This document shows positions 52,424 through 59,938 of a stretch of 64,000 bases of DNA, piece by piece; position 1 is the stretch's first letter, and the number at the start of each line of letters is the position of its first letter. The notes beneath the pieces are model-generated. The model saw only the letters and a program-made list of their open reading frames with translations, had not been told where the DNA came from and made no database searches. This DNA is from Rhizobium sp. NLR16a. GTDB taxonomy: Bacteria; Pseudomonadota; Alphaproteobacteria; Rhizobiales; Rhizobiaceae. The position numbers and the translations under genes are program-made. The stretch spans positions 310,001 to 374,000 of the forward strand of contig NZ_CP072865.1 in the NCBI RefSeq assembly GCF_017948245.1, given 5' to 3'.

Positions 52424-54031
52424 ATGGAACCAAACTGCTTAGCCGTGGTTCGGCGGGCTTTCACGGTCTCGAAGCATAAGGGAAATCCTTTGAACGAGCT
52501 GCACCATGAATTCCAGCTGCGAAGAGATTTTCTGCCGAGAGCCGAGGAGGACGGGTGGCCTCAACCTGGACCCGCGGCATTGCCGGTGGACAGCCCACCG
52601 GTCCTGCAAACACCGCTGTCGCCCCGCCCGTTAGTGGTTGATCTCGACGGCACCCTCGTTCGATCGGACCTGCTGATCGAAACTGTCTTCTCGGAGCTTA
52701 GCCGTCGGCCCCTTTCCATCGTCGATTTCGTCAGTTCGCTGTCCGCCGGAAAAGCGTGTCTGAAGCACCGCCTTTCTCAACCAGCGGATTTCGACCCGGC
52801 TATTCTTCCCTATGACGCGGAAGTGCTGAACGTCATCAAGGCCGCACGGGAGGAGGGACGATCGGTTTACCTCGCTTCTGCAACCCACGAACGCCTGGTT
52901 TGCACGGTTGCCGACCACCTTGGCCTTTTCGCCGGCTGGTTTGCAACGAACGAGACGATGAACTGTGTCGGCGAGGCGAAGGCGGCAAAGCTCGTCGCCG
53001 CCTTCGGGGAGGGGGGCTTCGACTATATCGGCAATGACCCGGCCGACTTGTCAGTCTGGCGCCACGCCGCAAAGTCCTATGCCATAAGGACATCGGCGGC
53101 AGTTGCTCGAGAGCTTTCGCGCCAATGCGACAACGTCGAGCACCTTAGTCACGACAGACCGACATGGCGGATTTGGACGCGCTCGTTGCGGGTGCATCAA
53201 TACGTCAAGAACGGGTTGGTTTTTATCCCGCTACTGACAAATCAACTCTTTGACCTCCATAGCCTTACGAATGCCGGCCTGGCTCTGGCGGCTTTTTCGC
53301 TTTGTGCCTCGGGCGTTTATCTCCTGAACGACTTGGTCGATCTGCAGGACGACCGCCGTCATAAAACCAAATGCCGCAGACCGCTTGCCTGTGGCGAGAT
53401 CCCGCTGTTGCACGCTCTGTTGGCAATCCCGATCCTGCTTTTGCTGTCGCTTACGGTGGCCGCCATGGTGTCGCCCGTCTTCGTGCTCGTACTCGCGGGT
53501 TATTTCGCCTTGACCACCGCCTACTCGTTCTTCCTCAAGCGGAAGATGATCCTGGACGTGGTGGCTCTCGCCTCTCTTTACACCACGCGGGTGATCGGCG
53601 GCGCTGCCGCCGTCTCGGTGTGGCCATCTCCCTGGCTGCTTGCCTTCATGATGAGCTGGTTTCTCTCGCTCGCTTTGGTGAAGCGATACACCGAGCTCAT
53701 TTCACGCCGCGCCGCGCACCTGCCGGATTCCAAGAGCCGCGACTACAGGAAGGCGGATATTGGGATGGTGGGCGCCCTGGCAGCTGGAGCGGGAATGAAC
53801 GCGCTGACGTTATTTGCCCTCTATGCCGCAAGCGACAGTGCCCAAGACATCTACACCAGGCCAGCCATGCTGTGGTTGGCCGGACCGATCCTTGCCTGCT
53901 GGATTGCCCGCATCCTTATGCTCGCCCACCGGGGACAGATGCATGACGATCCAGTCGTCTTCGCGATCAAGGACAAGGTCAGCCTCGTCACGCTCGGCGT
54001 CGCCGGCGTACTTGTCATTGCCGCAATGTGA
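52424..54031 (+). CDS. HAD phosphatase-UbiA prenyltransferase fusion (DPPR-synthase-like)
   Basis: A protein of about 535 residues joining two enzymes. Residues about 70-240 form a HAD-superfamily domain with V-V-D-L-D-G-T-L-V (D73, D75) and D-Y-I-G-N-D. Residues about 250-535 form a UbiA-type polyprenyl transferase with eight to nine helices and the acidic motif N-D-L-V-D-L-Q-D-D-R-R-H near 302-313. T-K-C-R-R-P-L-A-C-G follows, close to mycobacterial DPPR synthase, which attaches phosphoribose to decaprenyl phosphate. The fused HAD could remove the 5-phosphate of that product. The start is uncertain: ATG 52424, GTG 52421, TTG 52418, or TTG 52490 with AGGG upstream. It is the first gene of a six-gene operon. 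NoeC of Azorhizobium (Nod-factor arabinosylation) is a UbiA-type relative. Confidence 0.85.
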   Translation: MEPNCLAVVRRAFTVSKHKGNPLNELHHEFQLRRDFLPRAEEDGWPQPGPAALPVDSPPVLQTPLSPRPLVVDLDGTLVRSDLLIETVFSELSRRPLSIVDFVSSLSAGKACLKHRLSQPADFDPAILPYDAEVLNVIKAAREEGRSVYLASATHERLVCTVADHLGLFAGWFATNETMNCVGEAKAAKLVAAFGEGGFDYIGNDPADLSVWRHAAKSYAIRTSAAVARELSRQCDNVEHLSHDRPTWRIWTRSLRVHQYVKNGLVFIPLLTNQLFDLHSLTNAGLALAAFSLCASGVYLLNDLVDLQDDRRHKTKCRRPLACGEIPLLHALLAIPILLLLSLTVAAMVSPVFVLVLAGYFALTTAYSFFLKRKMILDVVALASLYTTRVIGGAAAVSVWPSPWLLAFMMSWFLSLALVKRYTELISRRAAHLPDSKSRDYRKADIGMVGALAAGAGMNALTLFALYAASDSAQDIYTRPAMLWLAGPILACWIARILMLAHRGQMHDDPVVFAIKDKVSLVTLGVAGVLVIAAM

Positions 54032-54040
54032 GGTGGCCGA

Positions 54041-54472
54041 ATGGCTCGTCAGTCCTCAGAGCGAAGCACTTCCGCGGGCCTCGCAACCCGCTACCTCGCC
54101 TTCGCCATGCTCTCCACCGCCGCCAACTTCGCGGTCCAGGCCACTGTCATGCAGCTGGCGCCGTCGCCGAACCTTATGCCTTCGATGCTCGCAGGGACCG
54201 CTGCCGGCTTCGGCTTGAAATATCTCCTCGACAAAAAATGGATATTCTTCGACGGCTACACGTCGCACGGCGACGAGATGCTCAAGGTGGCGCTTTACGG
54301 CCTGTTCAGTGTTCTGACGACGCTCATATTCTGGGGGTTTGAAATTACTTTTTGGACGGTGTGGAAGACGGAGCTCGCAAAATACACCGGCGGAGCGCTC
54401 GGCTTGGCGATCGGCTATATTTCCAAATACGCGTTGGACCGGAAATTCGTCTTCAAACCAGAGGAGGCGTAA
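54041..54472 (+). CDS. GtrA-family membrane protein (candidate polyprenyl-phosphate-sugar flippase)
   Basis: A 143-residue protein with four helices: about 15-35, 42-60, 78-102 and 112-130. It has the GtrA-family pattern R-Y-L-A-F-A-M-L-S-T-A-A-N-F near 17-30, L-D-K-K-W-I-F near 63-69, and the C-terminal Y-A-L-D-R-K-F-V-F. GtrA proteins flip or assist flipping of polyprenyl-phosphate-linked sugars; in mycobacteria a GtrA-like protein sits beside the DprE genes. The ribosome site GAGG lies before ATG 54041, 9 bases after the UbiA-fusion stop. Confidence 0.9.
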   Translation: MARQSSERSTSAGLATRYLAFAMLSTAANFAVQATVMQLAPSPNLMPSMLAGTAAGFGLKYLLDKKWIFFDGYTSHGDEMLKVALYGLFSVLTTLIFWGFEITFWTVWKTELAKYTGGALGLAIGYISKYALDRKFVFKPEEA

Positions 54473-54479
54473 CAAACTC

Positions 54480-55802
54480 ATGGAGGGCTGGGGACGCTAT
54501 CCGCGCCATGAAAGCCAGGCAATCGACTGCAAGCGGCCGGAGGCGCTTGCAGGCACCGTGGCCGCCCGCATGGGACTGATCGGCCGCGGAAATGGGCGTT
54601 CATACGGTGACGCGGCGATCGGCGAACACTCCACCCTGATGTGCCGTGGACTGAGCCGAATGCGGAGCTTCGATCCGAACGATGCGACGCTGACCGTGGA
54701 AGGGGGCGTAATGCTCTCGGATATTCTGCGCGCTTTTGTTCCGAGAGGCTATTTTCCGCCTGTGGTGCCGGGCACGAAATATGTCACGGTCGGCGGGATG
54801 ATTGCCTCTGACGTGCACGGCAAGAACCATCATCGCGACGGCGGGTTCGGTGACCATGTCAGCGAGATCAAGCTGGTGGTCGCCAGCGGAGAGACCCTCA
54901 CCTGTAGCCGCGGGCGCAACGCCGATCTTTTCTTCGCGACGGTCGGTGGTATGGGTATGACCGGGATCATCGCGGAAGCGACTTTCCGTTTGAGACCGAT
55001 TGAATCCGCCTGGATCGCGCAAAAGACGATCGTCACGGAAAATCTTGGCGAGGCGTTGAAGGCGCTGCAGCAGACCGAGGATGTCACCTATTCGGTCGCC
55101 TGGATCGATTGCCTTTCGCAAGGCGCCTCTCTTGGACGCTCGCTGATCTTTGCCGGCGAACACGCGACGCTGGACCAGGTCGGCGGCATGCCGGGCGTAG
55201 ATCGCTTTGCAGCGAAAAACGCAGGGATGTTTTCACTGCCATTCGATCTGCCGCAATGGGTGCTCAACAAAACAAGCGTAACAGCCTTCAACGAGATCTA
55301 TTTCCGGGCGGGAGCGCGAAAGGCGGCCAAGACCTCGCTGGTCCACTGGGATAAATACTTCTTTCCACTGGACGGCATCCTCGAATGGAACCGGCTTTAT
55401 GGCAGGCGGGGCTTTCTGCAGCATCAGTGCGTGGTTCCAGCCGAGGACGCGCTTCCAGTCCTGAGCGGCATGCTCGAGCGTTTTGCGCGTTCGGGAAAAG
55501 GCTCCTTTCTTGCCGTTCTGAAGAAGCTAGGGGGCGGAAGCGGGCTGCTGTCCTTTCCTGCGCCGGGCTACACGCTGGCACTCGACCTTCCCGTCACGCA
55601 GGAGGTGTTCCGGCTGCTCGACGAAATCGATGAGCTGGTTGTCAAGGCAGGAGGGCGGCTCTATCTCGCCAAGGATGCACGACAGTCACGTCACACATTC
55701 GAGGCTGGCTACCCTCGGTTGGCTGCGTTCAAGGAGCTACGCAAGGCAACGGGCGCCGATCGTCACTTTAATTCCCGCTTGGCAAAGAGGCTCGGCATAT
55801 GA
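54480..55802 (+). CDS. DprE1-like FAD oxidase (decaprenyl-phosphoryl-ribose 2'-oxidase family)
   Basis: A 440-residue VAO-type FAD protein. It has FAD loop G-R-G-N-G-R-S-Y-G-D at 35-44, then the family hallmark V-V-P-G-T-K-Y-V-T-V-G-G, D-V-H-G-K-N-H-H at 111-118 and G-G-F-G-D-H-V. The C-terminal half keeps G-G-R-L-Y-L-A-K-D-A-R, with K398 matching the catalytic Lys418 of M. tuberculosis DprE1. The residue equivalent to DprE1 Cys387, 31 positions before that Lys, is Ala367 (in Y-T-L-A-L-D-L-P). The mycobacterial enzyme oxidises the 2'-OH of decaprenyl-phospho-ribose. The stop overlaps the next start (ATGA), as expected for a DprE1-DprE2 pair. The GGAGG ribosome site is about 10 bases upstream. 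Confidence 0.92.
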   Translation: MEGWGRYPRHESQAIDCKRPEALAGTVAARMGLIGRGNGRSYGDAAIGEHSTLMCRGLSRMRSFDPNDATLTVEGGVMLSDILRAFVPRGYFPPVVPGTKYVTVGGMIASDVHGKNHHRDGGFGDHVSEIKLVVASGETLTCSRGRNADLFFATVGGMGMTGIIAEATFRLRPIESAWIAQKTIVTENLGEALKALQQTEDVTYSVAWIDCLSQGASLGRSLIFAGEHATLDQVGGMPGVDRFAAKNAGMFSLPFDLPQWVLNKTSVTAFNEIYFRAGARKAAKTSLVHWDKYFFPLDGILEWNRLYGRRGFLQHQCVVPAEDALPVLSGMLERFARSGKGSFLAVLKKLGGGSGLLSFPAPGYTLALDLPVTQEVFRLLDEIDELVVKAGGRLYLAKDARQSRHTFEAGYPRLAAFKELRKATGADRHFNSRLAKRLGI

Positions 55803-56548
55803 AGGGGATCGGCAAGACCCTGCTCCTGATAGGCGGGACATCGGATATCGGTCGCGCGACGGCGCTGATCTATGCCGAGGCGGGATGGGACGTGCTTCTG
55901 ACCGGACGAAAGCGCTCTGCCGTACAACGCGAGGCCGACGACATCAGCGCGCGGACCGGCGCTAATGTCCTAGTTCACGAACTCGACATCCTCGCTACAA
56001 GCCGCTTTGAAGATTTCGTGGGCGCCGTTTCGCCTCTGCCCGACACGGCGGTCTGCGTCGTTGGCGAACTGGGCGAGCAGTCTCGCGCCGAACGGGAACT
56101 TGAGCATGCCGCCATGATCATGCGGACGAACTTTGAAGGGCCAGCTTTGCTTCTTGGCCTTCTGGCGGAACGTTTTGCGGCGAGAGGATCCGGAACCATC
56201 GTCGGCATTAGTTCCGTCGCCGGCGATCGCGGACGCGCGTCCAACTATGTCTATGGCGCCGGCAAAGCCGGGCTGACCGCCTTCTTGTCCGGCCTGAGGA
56301 ACCGGCTGTCCGGGTCCGGGGTGCGCGTGCTCACCGTGAAGCCCGGTTTCGTTCGGACACGCATGACGCATGGCATGAAGCTCCCGCCGCTTCTCACCGC
56401 CGAACCTCGGGAGGTCGCGCAGAAGATCTTTACTGTCGCCGAGGGAAGCAGAGGCGGGGACGTGGTCTATGTCAGACGAATATGGCGACCGCTGATGACG
56501 GCGATCCGGTCAATCCCGGAGCCGATCTTCAAGAGGTTGCGGCTGTGA
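55799..56548 (+). CDS. DprE2-like short-chain dehydrogenase
   Basis: A 249-residue classical SDR with dinucleotide loop G-G-T-S-D-I-G at 12-18, catalytic Ser in I-S-S-V-A-G-D-R-G-R (137-146), and Y152-G-A-G-K156. S-S-V-A-G-D-R-G-R is characteristic of DprE2, which reduces the 2'-keto intermediate to decaprenyl-phospho-arabinose. Pairing with the upstream DprE1-like gene through a 4-base ATGA overlap makes the call strong. The next gene begins in the same way inside its stop (GTGA). Confidence 0.9.
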   Translation: MKGIGKTLLLIGGTSDIGRATALIYAEAGWDVLLTGRKRSAVQREADDISARTGANVLVHELDILATSRFEDFVGAVSPLPDTAVCVVGELGEQSRAERELEHAAMIMRTNFEGPALLLGLLAERFAARGSGTIVGISSVAGDRGRASNYVYGAGKAGLTAFLSGLRNRLSGSGVRVLTVKPGFVRTRMTHGMKLPPLLTAEPREVAQKIFTVAEGSRGGDVVYVRRIWRPLMTAIRSIPEPIFKRLRL

Positions 56549-58179
56549 CGGAACCAGGCAATCACGCCGCGTACGCGGCCATCGGAACGGGAGCAGGCGC
56601 CAGCAAGCGACCGGCGGCGAGGATACGGCGGCTGCGCGCGGCGGAAGGTTTGATCATCCTGACAGCATTGGTCTCTGCGGCCATGCTTGCCTTGCCGGGA
56701 AGGACCATCAACGCCGCCTTTATCAATGACGTGCTGGTCTTTATCGACGGTGCGCACCGCATCACATTCGGTCAGGTGCCGAACCGCGATTTCCACACGG
56801 CGCTCGGGCCACTCGTCTTTTATCTTCCGGCGGCTGGATACCAACTGACGGGGAATTTCGGCGCTGCGATACCGGTTGGAATGGCTATCGTTGTCGTCGC
56901 CTTCATCCCCGCAATGATCCGCATTCTTGTGTCTCGCCTCAACCCGTCATTGGCGGCCGCGCTCGGCATATTCCTCATTCTCATCCTCGCGGCGCCTATC
57001 AATCTCGGCAGTTCCATCTGGTATCCTTCGTTCGCGATGTTCTATAATCGCATCGGTTGGGTCGCGCTCGGCTTGCTGCTGGTGATGTATCTGACGCCGC
57101 AGCCCGCGCGCGGGCGCAACGATGCCGCCGATGCTCTTGCCGCTGTCTTTCTTCTGCTCGTCTCATTCTACATCAAGGCGACTTACGGGCTCGCCGGAAC
57201 CGCCTTTCTCCTTGTCATCCTGTTGGATCGGCAGCAGCGCCGCTGGGTCGTGACTGCCCTGCTGCTGACGGGGCTGGCCATGATCGCCATCGAGTTCTTC
57301 TGGCGCGGAACCATTCAGCATATAGAGGATCTGCGGGCGGCGGCGCGTGTCAGCGGCGGCCATGACGTCGCCAGCATCCTGAAGAACCTGCGTGAGAACC
57401 TTTCCGACCTCATCGTGTTTGCGGCCTTCGCCTTGGTCGCCATCTGGCAAACCGGCAGCTTCCGCGATTTTCTCTTCTCCGGGTTCTGCATAGGCGCCGG
57501 CCTGGCGATCATCAATCAGAACGCCCACAGCTGGGGCATTATCACGCTCTACTGCGGCGCAGTCGCTCTGGTGCAGAAAGCCGCCTGGCCTCAGCAAGGC
57601 GATGACGGGAGAAGGACAGGAGGCTTGGCTCTTCCTGCCGGGGCTCTTCCGCTGCTCGCGGCCTTATTCCTGTCGCCGCCGATCGTACATCACGCCGCTG
57701 CCCTCATTCTGCATACATCGCTTGCGGCTGAGAAAGCTGGTCAATCGCTCGGGCTGCCACGTTTTGACGATGTTCGGGAAATCGATCCGCCTGGCGGCGA
57801 ACCTGACTTCATAAGGCGCTATCTCGACGACATCGTAACCGGGGGGGCGCTGCTGCAGGCGTTGCCCGTACTACCCGAACGCGTTTTTGTGCTTGATTTC
57901 GTCAATCCATTTTCAGCCGGCCTCGGAATTCGCCCGCCTACCGGTGACTCCGCCTGGTTTCACTGGAACCGCAATATCAACGAGAAGGCCTACATCCCAC
58001 CGGAAGTGCTCTTTGCGGATGTAAAGATCGTCATGGTGCCTAAAACCGGTATCAACAGCCTGCCCTTGCAGGAGCTGTACGGCCCATTTCTTTCGGCTCG
58101 GTTCGAGGTCGTTCAGAAGACATCGGAGTGGACGGTCTACCAGTGGCGTCAGGCGAAGGTGCAAAGCGAGGTGAAGTGA
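56545..58179 (+). CDS. Polytopic membrane protein, candidate GT-C-type glycosyltransferase (paralogue A)
   Basis: 544 residues, about ten to twelve helices. I place the start at GTG 56545, overlapping the DprE2 stop as GTGA with AGAGG upstream; the open frame from 56482 would overlap 67 bases. After helix 1 (about 35-51) the first outer loop holds F-I-N-D62-V-L-V-F-I-D68-G-A-H-R, then G-Q-V-P-N (76-80) and D-F-H (82-84). Acidic residues in the first periplasmic loop are typical of GT-C enzymes. A C-terminal soluble part carries V-L-D-F-V-N-P-F-S-A-G and P-P-T-G-D-S. The next gene is a clear paralogue. No family name is known to me. Transfer of a polyprenyl-phospho-pentose is inferred from context. 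Confidence 0.85.
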   Translation: MTEPGNHAAYAAIGTGAGASKRPAARIRRLRAAEGLIILTALVSAAMLALPGRTINAAFINDVLVFIDGAHRITFGQVPNRDFHTALGPLVFYLPAAGYQLTGNFGAAIPVGMAIVVVAFIPAMIRILVSRLNPSLAAALGIFLILILAAPINLGSSIWYPSFAMFYNRIGWVALGLLLVMYLTPQPARGRNDAADALAAVFLLLVSFYIKATYGLAGTAFLLVILLDRQQRRWVVTALLLTGLAMIAIEFFWRGTIQHIEDLRAAARVSGGHDVASILKNLRENLSDLIVFAAFALVAIWQTGSFRDFLFSGFCIGAGLAIINQNAHSWGIITLYCGAVALVQKAAWPQQGDDGRRTGGLALPAGALPLLAALFLSPPIVHHAAALILHTSLAAEKAGQSLGLPRFDDVREIDPPGGEPDFIRRYLDDIVTGGALLQALPVLPERVFVLDFVNPFSAGLGIRPPTGDSAWFHWNRNINEKAYIPPEVLFADVKIVMVPKTGINSLPLQELYGPFLSARFEVVQKTSEWTVYQWRQAKVQSEVK

Positions 58180-59744
58180 CTGTGCAAGCGGGAGACGGCG
58201 CATCGCGCCCGGCGTCACGGTTGAGTTGGTCGCAGGCTGTCATCTTCGGCACGGGTTTCGTTCTCGCCTGCCTTCTCGCTCTGCCCGGCCAAACGGCGAC
58301 GACCAAGTACGTCAACGACCTCTTCGTTTTCCTGGATGGTGCTCATCGCATCGTACATGGCCAGGTGCCGAATGTGGATTTCCATTCGCCACTCGGGCCG
58401 CTGACATTTTACATTCCCGCCGCCGGCTATGGCTTGTCGGGCAATATGGGCGGCGCGATGCCGGCTGGAATGGCGATAGTGGTTCTCCTGCTTGCGGCTA
58501 TCGCCGCGGAAATCGTGGGCAGCCGGATGCATATGGCGTTCGGACTGCCGCTTGCGATCTTCCTGCTCTTGATAGCTGCGGTTCCCGCAAATCCGGGCGA
58601 GCGGATAGGGGAGCTGACCTTTGCCATGTTCTACAACCGGATTGGATGGGCGTCGCTGGGCTTACTGCTGGTGATGTATTTGCCTCGCTTGCCGGCCTCC
58701 GGGAGTAGCAAGGCCGTCGACGCCGCATGCGCCAGTCTCCTTGTGTTGCTGATGCTCTACACCAAGATCACCTATGGCGTCGTAGGGCTTGGCTTCCTTT
58801 TGTTCATGCTTTTCGATCGTCGCCAGATCGGTTGGGTGAGGTTGGCGCTCGGGATGATCGCTTTCAGCGTTATCGCGACTGAAATCATCTGGGGCGGCGG
58901 GTTCAACTACCTTGCTGACCTTGGCCTTTCAGCAAAAAACAGCGGCGGCGTTCTCACGTTGACCGCCCTCGGTCACTTGGTACGGAACAATCACGCCGAC
59001 CTTCTTGTCTATCTGACGGTCGTGCTCGTCGTTCTCAACCTGACGCCGAGTTATCGGCATTTGCTCTTCGTTGCCTTCTGCGGCACAACCGGAATCCTCT
59101 TGATCGGGCAGAATTTCCAGACCGTCGGGATTCTGACGTTGGGTGCGGGCGCCGCCGTCATTACGGAAAGCCTCTTTCGCGCCAAGCTGCTCTCCCGATA
59201 CGGGAAGGCGCGGTTCGCCCTGCCATTACTCCTAGGGTTCCTGTTGTTGCCCTCCGCCGTCTGCAACGCTGCATCGCTCGCAATTCATGCCTATTATGCT
59301 GCCGGCGGCCGAGGCAAACCGATCCCGCTGCCGGCGTTTTCTGAGATCGGGCTCGTTGAGATGTGGAGCGCCGGCCAATACGAATACTTCGAGAGATACA
59401 ACAGGACATTGGCTGACGCTTCGGCTGCCCTGTCGCAACTGATGTCTGCTGACGAGCGCGTCGCGGTTCTCGATTTCGTCAATCCCTTCTCCGCCGGCAT
59501 GGGGCTGACACCGCCGGTGGGCGACAGCGTGTGGTATCATTGGGGGCGAACTCTTGGACCGGATGATCATCCGGCCGCGGAAGAGATGTTCGCCGACGTT
59601 GACCTTATCCTCGATCCGAAATGGCCGATCGAAATCTGGACGGGTAACGGCCTGCGCGACCTTTATGCCCACTATATCGCCCGCCACTATGTGCTGGTGC
59701 GGGAGACGGCCGATTGGCGCATTTATCGGAGAAAGGCTTTCTGA
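58176..59744 (+). CDS. Polytopic membrane protein, candidate GT-C-type glycosyltransferase (paralogue B)
   Basis: 522 residues, same architecture as the preceding gene. The start at GTG 58176 overlaps its stop as GTGA, with AGCGAGG upstream. Matching motifs are Y-V-N-D48-L-F-V-F-L-D54-G-A-H-R, G-Q-V-P-N (62-66), D-F-H (68-70), F-A-M-F-Y-N-R-I-G-W, and in the C-terminal part V-L-D-F-V-N-P-F-S-A-G followed by P-P-V-G-D-S. The conserved segments are the outer-loop acids and the FVNPFSAG region; the helices diverge, which suggests distinct specificities after a tandem duplication. It is the last gene of the DprE-type operon. Confidence 0.85.
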   Translation: MTVQAGDGASRPASRLSWSQAVIFGTGFVLACLLALPGQTATTKYVNDLFVFLDGAHRIVHGQVPNVDFHSPLGPLTFYIPAAGYGLSGNMGGAMPAGMAIVVLLLAAIAAEIVGSRMHMAFGLPLAIFLLLIAAVPANPGERIGELTFAMFYNRIGWASLGLLLVMYLPRLPASGSSKAVDAACASLLVLLMLYTKITYGVVGLGFLLFMLFDRRQIGWVRLALGMIAFSVIATEIIWGGGFNYLADLGLSAKNSGGVLTLTALGHLVRNNHADLLVYLTVVLVVLNLTPSYRHLLFVAFCGTTGILLIGQNFQTVGILTLGAGAAVITESLFRAKLLSRYGKARFALPLLLGFLLLPSAVCNAASLAIHAYYAAGGRGKPIPLPAFSEIGLVEMWSAGQYEYFERYNRTLADASAALSQLMSADERVAVLDFVNPFSAGMGLTPPVGDSVWYHWGRTLGPDDHPAAEEMFADVDLILDPKWPIEIWTGNGLRDLYAHYIARHYVLVRETADWRIYRRKAF

Positions 59745-59938
59745 GTCGGTGCGGTCTGTTGTTTCAGCTCCGCGATGATTAGGCCGATGAGCATCAGCAC
59801 GAGCGCCCAGGCGTAAATGGATCCTGCCGTCAGTTGGCCCAAGCTGGGAGCCCCAGCCAGGGCAAAGGCCTAGATCGCCAGCAGCGGGAGCTCCAAACCG
59901 CCGGCCGGTCTGTAGCAGCGCGGCCCGGTCGTCGCGAC
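59723..59938 (-). pseudogene. Possible remnant of a membrane-protein gene
   Basis: On the minus strand one frame reads L-E-L-P-L-L-A-I, a TAG, then A-F-A-L-A-G-A-P-S-L-G-Q-L-T-A-G-S-I-Y-A-W-A and a hydrophobic stretch L-V-L-M-L-I-G-L-I-I-A-E-L-K, ending at 59723. It looks like the C-terminal helices of an inner-membrane protein broken by one stop. There is no start or ribosome site, and its upstream part would have been replaced by the methyltransferase gene. Random translation of GC-rich DNA is the alternative. Confidence 0.3.

Follow-up and report, generated by a model that had tools for sequence, protein, structure and literature searches.

The rare sugar D-arabinofuranose is known above all from the walls of mycobacteria. 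Their decaprenyl-phospho-arabinose (DPA) pathway combines a UbiA phosphoribosyltransferase, an Rv3807c-type phosphatase, the DprE1/DprE2 pair and GT-C arabinosyltransferases, and the six-gene operon of Rhizobium sp. NLR16a considered here brings together similar components, except that a HAD domain takes the place of the Rv3807c-type phosphatase. The operon lies in a 64,000-nucleotide stretch of contig NZ_CP072865.1 (positions 310,001 to 374,000), hereafter called the window. With a probability of roughly 0.8, it is a complete system for making a lipid-linked D-arabinofuranose donor and transferring the sugar.

Component sets of this kind have been described in other Gram-negative bacteria. 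The three-component system of Citrobacter youngae O1/O2 has, like the window, a HAD-UbiA fusion, a small membrane flippase and a GT-C enzyme, and ORF15 of the O1 system, a fusion of the same layout, makes lipid-phospho-ribofuranose from phosphoribosyl pyrophosphate (PRPP) (PMC11127046). The Citrobacter flippase is of the MATE type, whereas the window's candidate is a GtrA protein, and the window adds DprE1/DprE2-like genes and has two GT-C paralogues. Candidate arabinofuranose systems contain DprE1/DprE2 homologues, some systems have several GT-Cs, and in Pseudomonas aeruginosa the same donor pathway serves D-arabinosylation of pilin; rhizobia go unmentioned in the main text of that paper (PMC11127046). 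This type of pathway is already published, in the noe genes, in pilin arabinosylation and in the three-component systems. A sequence-only reading of the window had proposed an operon that makes a polyprenyl-phospho-pentofuranose and transfers it to the cell surface; the set agrees in kind with the published pentofuranose systems, and the gene combination is less unprecedented than that reading implied. What is new is the GT-C family, which Pfam and NCBIfam profiles leave unclassified, together with its old triplication, its GT87 partner and its link to GH183.

The closest rhizobial counterpart is the noe operon (Azorhizobium; IRBG74), which is part of Nod-factor synthesis, and genes 1-4 match that operon; the sequence-only reading had pointed to noeC and Nod-factor arabinosylation. 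The IRBG74 plasmid operon (locus L059, noeCNHOP type) has the same order, UbiA-GtrA-DprE1-DprE2-last gene, and homologues of noeC, noeN, noeH and noeO follow one another in the window with 38%, 44%, 46% and 51% identity, the last value being that of NoeO and the DprE2-like protein. The noeC product (387 aa) aligns with the UbiA part of the HAD-UbiA protein only, and NoeP (401 aa), not detectably related to the window's last two proteins, gave no significant blastp or profile match to the GT-C family. Deletion of noeP removes Nod-factor arabinose and deletion of noeN lowers it, and NoeN has been proposed as a phosphatase (PMC5080398). The second gene of the IRBG74 operon (L059:4576-4995), whose position suggests that it is noeN, has a product of the GtrA family (PF04138, 36.6 bits against a cut-off of 26.1), and an auxiliary flippase would fit the partial noeN phenotype better than a phosphatase.

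Donor genes and proposed pathway

The pathway would start from PRPP, which a UbiA-type phosphoribosyltransferase would carry to the polyprenyl-phospho-ribofuranose stage, with the fused HAD domain taking off the 5'-phosphate. A DprE1-like oxidase (2'-oxidation) and a DprE2-like reductase would then invert C2 to give polyprenyl-phospho-D-arabinofuranose, GtrA would assist flipping across the inner membrane, and the two last proteins, here called GTCa and GTCb, would, on the periplasmic side, move the sugar onto a glycan or glycolipid of the envelope, probably with different linkage or acceptor preferences. D-Arabinofuranose is the most likely sugar. Homology, conserved motifs, gene order, the predicted fold of GTCa and linkage to the donor genes in distant relatives are what the analysis shows; the identity of the sugar, each enzyme activity, the flipping and the way the paralogues share the work are inferred.

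The first gene encodes a fusion, with a HAD phosphatase domain at residues 72-210 (PF12710, 35.2 bits, cut-off 27) and a UbiA domain whose best stretch is 280-424; the whole scores 638 bits against NF006088 (cut-off 351). The DLDGT motif at residue 73 supplies the nucleophile Asp expected of a HAD phosphoribose phosphatase, and the UbiA part has NDLVDLQDD at 302 and KRYTEL at 420. When this part is aligned (88.7 bits) to 8j8j, a solved decaprenyl-phosphate phosphoribosyltransferase of mycobacteria, the NDxxDxxxD motif and the KRY.EL stretch of the domain are retained. The GtrA family match makes the second product a candidate small membrane flippase. The third product matches the solved structure of DprE1 (4aut, E 2e-86) over nearly its whole length, residues 2-438, the HGKNHH and AKD stretches included. 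Its score of 419 bits lies under the curated cut-off of 500 of the DprE1 equivalog NF053785. The control C. glutamicum passes this threshold; none of the 397 genomes searched in the window's order does. The fourth product likewise falls under the cut-off of the DprE2 equivalog NF053786 (187 bits against 250) and exceeds that of the general short-chain dehydrogenase/reductase (SDR) model NF005489 (358 bits against 267); because of these equivalog scores the two are named DprE1-like and DprE2-like. The Cys in the 4aut stretch PGWNVCVDFP, which we take to be the residue bound by covalent DprE1 inhibitors, is Ala in the window protein (PGYTLALDLP).

The identities that the sequence-only reading gave to genes 1-4 are borne out by these family matches, the DprE pair with the qualification just given, and the alignments to 8j8j and 4aut support its proposal that the set would make a polyprenyl-phospho-pentofuranose. 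It missed two points, namely the fusion of a phosphatase to the UbiA domain and the homology between the last two proteins.

A GT-C family with three paralogue groups

GTCa and GTCb are paralogues with 41% identity, both included in the family alignment A1. They had been described as two unknown polytopic proteins, and in one respect that holds: nothing credible matches them in Pfam or NCBIfam, where the best hit is an Rnf model (E 0.012). But the AlphaFold model of GTCa (pLDDT 91) has a GT-C glycosyltransferase fold, and GTCb is homologous to it. As in solved GT-C enzymes, the model has a multi-helix membrane domain with an extracytoplasmic loop after helix 1, which would place the protein in that superfamily. 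The mycobacterial arabinosyltransferase AftA matches the model over 437 residues and is among the closest folds among the matches listed; structural alignments run at about 10% identity. The C-terminal 140 residues form a small mixed alpha/beta stretch, and no separate beta-rich binding domain is apparent there in the secondary structure of the model. This fold, with the homology of GTCb, supports the transfer role assigned earlier to the last two genes.

For the family as a whole, each Pfam family matches at most 2 of 84 members (best E 0.0036), and a sequence search of the PDB with the family profile gave no match. Among the UniRef matches listed (120 of 421), a few members carry the name 'Glycosyltransferase RgtA/B/C/D-like'. 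The closest named relatives of GTCa are in Rhizobium aethiopicum SEMIA 4074 (94%) and R. esperanzae (92%). A sequence link of the family to GT87 (A2) or to the TMEM260-like enzymes (A3) was considered and dropped, since profile comparison gave none.

When genomes of named species were scanned, 55 homologous loci came to light (numbered with L; start codons of relatives were picked automatically). These hold three GT-C copies in 24 cases, two in 11 and one in 20; matches of fewer than 250 residues were left uncounted, and some counts are lowered by locus ends and broken copies. A quick maximum-likelihood tree, made without bootstrap and with long branches flagged, comprised 114 proteins of the 55 loci and the two of the window; A1 holds 84 of these 116, near duplicates being omitted, and L001-L003, from the window's own genome, were left out of the tree and flank work. 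The tree resolves three groups by gene position, with SH-aLRT support of 98 for the first and 92-93 for the others; the third-position protein of L040 falls outside its group, with the roseobacters. Across the three-copy loci (72 proteins) the best match in another genus stands at the same position for 70, and for 53 it is closer than the nearest sibling in the same locus. As judged from these sequences, the triplication is old and the three groups keep a fixed order. Their long maintenance argues for different linkages or acceptors. GTCa belongs to group 2 and GTCb to group 3, and the Rhizobium loci near the window (L004-L012, L017) yielded no copy of group 1. At L072 (7155-8657) the third-position gene is broken into several frames, the other five genes matching as single pieces.

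A gene for a GT87 protein (PF09594) often adjoins the operon. Of 42 non-roseobacter loci, 29 have it near full length and 6 as a partial copy, and in 7 the search gave none, which rules it out as a universal partner; 27 of the 29 lie convergently just downstream, and those of L040 and L056 upstream. In two close relatives of the window, L004 and L005, the matches span just 123 and 72 residues, and in the window itself a remnant of the last codons is all that is left of the linked gene.

In the window the junctions along the six genes are +9, +7, -4, -4 and -4 bases, the overlaps being ATGA, GTGA and GTGA, in agreement with the tight co-directional arrangement first reported. The set had also been called chromosomal, which fits the window contig (it reaches beyond 3.16 Mb in a genome of 6.58 Mb) and fails for 30 Rhizobium records of a plasmid collection, where the system is plasmid-borne; R. 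etli CIAT 652 has it on a plasmid.

Table 1. The operon, six complete and intact co-directional open reading frames (ORFs) at 52424-59744 on the + strand, and the adjoining remnant.
Feature	Coordinates	Strand	Length	Matches and assignment
HAD-UbiA	52424-54031	+	535 aa	NF006088, PF01040, PF12710; aligns to 8j8j/8j8k
GtrA	54041-54472	+	143 aa	PF04138, 37.9 bits; NF037976, 163 bits (cut-off 50); putative flippase
DprE1-like flavin adenine dinucleotide (FAD) oxidase	54480-55802	+	440 aa	NF053785, 419 bits; 4aut, E 2e-86
DprE2-like SDR reductase	55799-56548	+	249 aa	PF00106, NF005489, NF053786 (187 bits)
GTCa	56545-58179	+	544 aa, GTG start	GT-C-fold membrane glycosyltransferase (model), paralogue group 2
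GTCb	58176-59744	+	522 aa, GTG start	Paralogue group 3; GT-C fold by homology to GTCa
GT87 remnant	59726-59848	-	last 41 codons	tblastn, 68% over 41 aa, E 2e-11

Gene order and distribution

The 55 loci come from Rhizobium, Neorhizobium, Pseudorhizobium, Microvirga, Paracoccus, roseobacters and a few metagenome-assembled genomes. A search for the gene order across relatives, proposed in the sequence-only reading, found HAD-UbiA, GtrA, DprE1, DprE2 and GT-C in that order on one strand in 48 of these alphaproteobacterial loci, more than chance would give. The seven deviating loci comprise two short contigs (L021, L044), one without DprE1 and with DprE2 as a piece (L048), one with the donor genes on the opposite strand (L049) and one with no donor gene in the stretch examined (L050). 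At L056 the donor genes are ordered, the adjoining GT-C piece is short and full copies lie further on; at L058, three GT-C paralogues come after HAD-UbiA, and 17 kb there gave no match to GtrA, DprE1 or DprE2.

Within the genus Rhizobium the system is accessory, occurring in at least 17 of 148 genomes, the window's counted. The genome searches scored 3 to 10 first-look candidates per genome, and carrier counts are accordingly lower bounds. The window's order was searched through 397 genomes: at least 25 contain the GT-C family, as members or distant relatives, at least 102 contain HAD-UbiA and at least 60 DprE1-like genes (E 1e-60 or better). Of the 25 GT-C-family genomes, 21 also have HAD-UbiA (Fisher 4e-10; 17 of 21 with four close relatives removed, 4e-8); it lies within 10 kb of a GT-C family member in 15 of the 25, and DprE1-like genes are present in 11 (Fisher 3e-4). 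At L089 HAD-UbiA, GtrA and a GT-C relative are packed closely together, a bare three-component set, with no DprE match in 19 kb.

Two results weigh against this linkage to donor genes. No donor gene was found in the stretch searched at any of the nine loci examined for distant Rhodobacteraceae GT-C relatives (matches of which 39 of 42 score under 90 bits), nor in the stretch searched at 6 of 14 loci of the window's order. Separately, DprE1-like genes are widespread in the order, and 49 of the 60 genomes with them gave no match to the GT-C family, which points to other end transferases.

Acceptor and product

As product of the proposed arabinofuranose system, a surface glycan that bears D-arabinofuranose as a short chain or a side chain is the most probable. 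As a side-chain modification system, GTCa and GTCb would place single D-arabinofuranose residues on lipopolysaccharide O-antigen, core or capsule, as in Citrobacter, the second paralogue serving a second site, an explanation that is quite plausible though we would not put it at even odds. It shares its component logic with the published systems (PMC11127046), a distant relative in Hyphomicrobium sits in a Wzz/carbamoyltransferase cluster, and the patchy distribution within Rhizobium, with the plasmid location in relatives, fits antigenic variation. Yet translations from 49-63 kb of the window, inspected by eye and with no family search of the neighbours, showed no recognisable O-antigen or capsule genes, and no acceptor gene conserved across genera was found in flanks of up to 8 kb with crude ORF calls; linkage to GH183 and GT87 moreover suggests more than single residues. 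Nor was a pilin gene recognised by eye beside the operon. Just upstream of the GT-C gene at L049 (4894-7718) lie a sulfotransferase (PF13469) and an arylsulfotransferase-like protein (PF14269), and genes resembling them were seen by eye near L057.

The roseobacter loci point to a possible polymer. Of 13 roseobacter genomes with a GT-C gene, 12 have exactly one match to DUF4185, 4.1-8.5 kb from that gene; DUF4185 is GH183, an endo-D-arabinanase family (PMC10115798, PMC10509167). The background is 5 matches in 295 genomes of the family. Two are in GT-C gene carriers (G001, G006; Fisher 2e-4); one, at L066, directly precedes HAD-UbiA-GtrA-DprE1-DprE2 with no GT-C match, another, at L067, has no GT-C or donor genes in 17 kb, and the fifth is weak. 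AsmA and TMEM260-like GT-C genes are present at 12 of the 13 loci and MdoG at 11; L057, without AsmA and the TMEM260-like gene, is in the genome without a DUF4185 match. AsmA and TMEM260-like genes hence accompany the operon wherever DUF4185 does, which suggests a shared export or lipid-anchoring task.

The GH183 linkage suggests D-arabinan and makes alphaproteobacterial D-arabinan a concrete hypothesis. The GT-C set might polymerise D-arabinofuranose into a true capsular or lipid-anchored D-arabinan, one linkage per paralogue as in mycobacteria, with GH183 trimming it in roseobacters; this deserves tentative consideration, the odds being somewhat against it. The ordered paralogue groups argue for it, as do the additional linked GT-C enzymes (GT87 and the TMEM260-like proteins) and the roseobacter gene of the endo-D-arabinanase family, and Devosia submarina, of the order Hyphomicrobiales, has a D-arabinan of alternating 2- and 5-linked alpha-D-arabinofuranose (PMC8707391, in whose main text neither 'genome' nor 'biosynth' occurs and no arabinan genes are named). 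DUF4185 gave no match in the Rhizobium genome of the window, by a search that admits zero as no proof of absence though other genomes gave matches, nor in any of seven other non-roseobacter carriers tested; no Rhizobium polymer is known from this analysis; and because roseobacters have one GT-C copy yet GH183, copy number and GH183 do not track. In the open-licence PMC literature no paper was found that joins D-arabinan with alphaproteobacteria, or that treats alphaproteobacterial arabinofuranosyl glycosyltransferases with polyprenyl donors. In its fuller form, in which the triplicated family would supply one enzyme per linkage, GT87 and TMEM260-like proteins would add or prime residues and the roseobacter GH183 would remodel the polymer, the making of genuine D-arabinan by these operons is a doubtful but serious proposal.

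A periplasmic glucan (OpgGH or cyclic beta-glucan) is an unlikely acceptor. MdoG/OpgG does adjoin the GT-C gene in 11 of the 13 roseobacter loci, in two arrangements and with diverged MdoG copies, but 9 of the 11 are convergent rather than co-transcribed. MdoG was without a match in all six Rhizobiaceae genomes tested, the window's included, and in one of five roseobacters tested; the OpgG-glucan idea accordingly does not extend to those six, and OpgG is ruled out as a universal partner. Very improbable is a donor that stays ribofuranose or becomes xylofuranose, the DprE-like pair having another lipid or sugar substrate: the equivalog scores, the DprE-free trio at L089 and the acceptance of both sugars by GT136 (PMC11127046) speak for it, and the near end-to-end DprE1 alignment, with its conserved stretches, and the GH183 association speak against it.

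With the D-arabinofuranose system proposed here, a tractable soil bacterium becomes available for work on the donor pathway and on a new GT-C family whose members are probably arabinosyltransferases, and alphaproteobacterial D-arabinan gains a set of candidate genes that can be tested. The link to GH183 suggests what endo-D-arabinanases may naturally act on outside actinobacteria, and related operons hint that some Gram-negative bacteria have an arabinan like that of mycobacteria. If the D-arabinan proposal is true, these operons would correspond, in Gram-negative bacteria, to the machinery with which mycobacteria make arabinan, and they would be candidates for the route to polymers like that of Devosia submarina.

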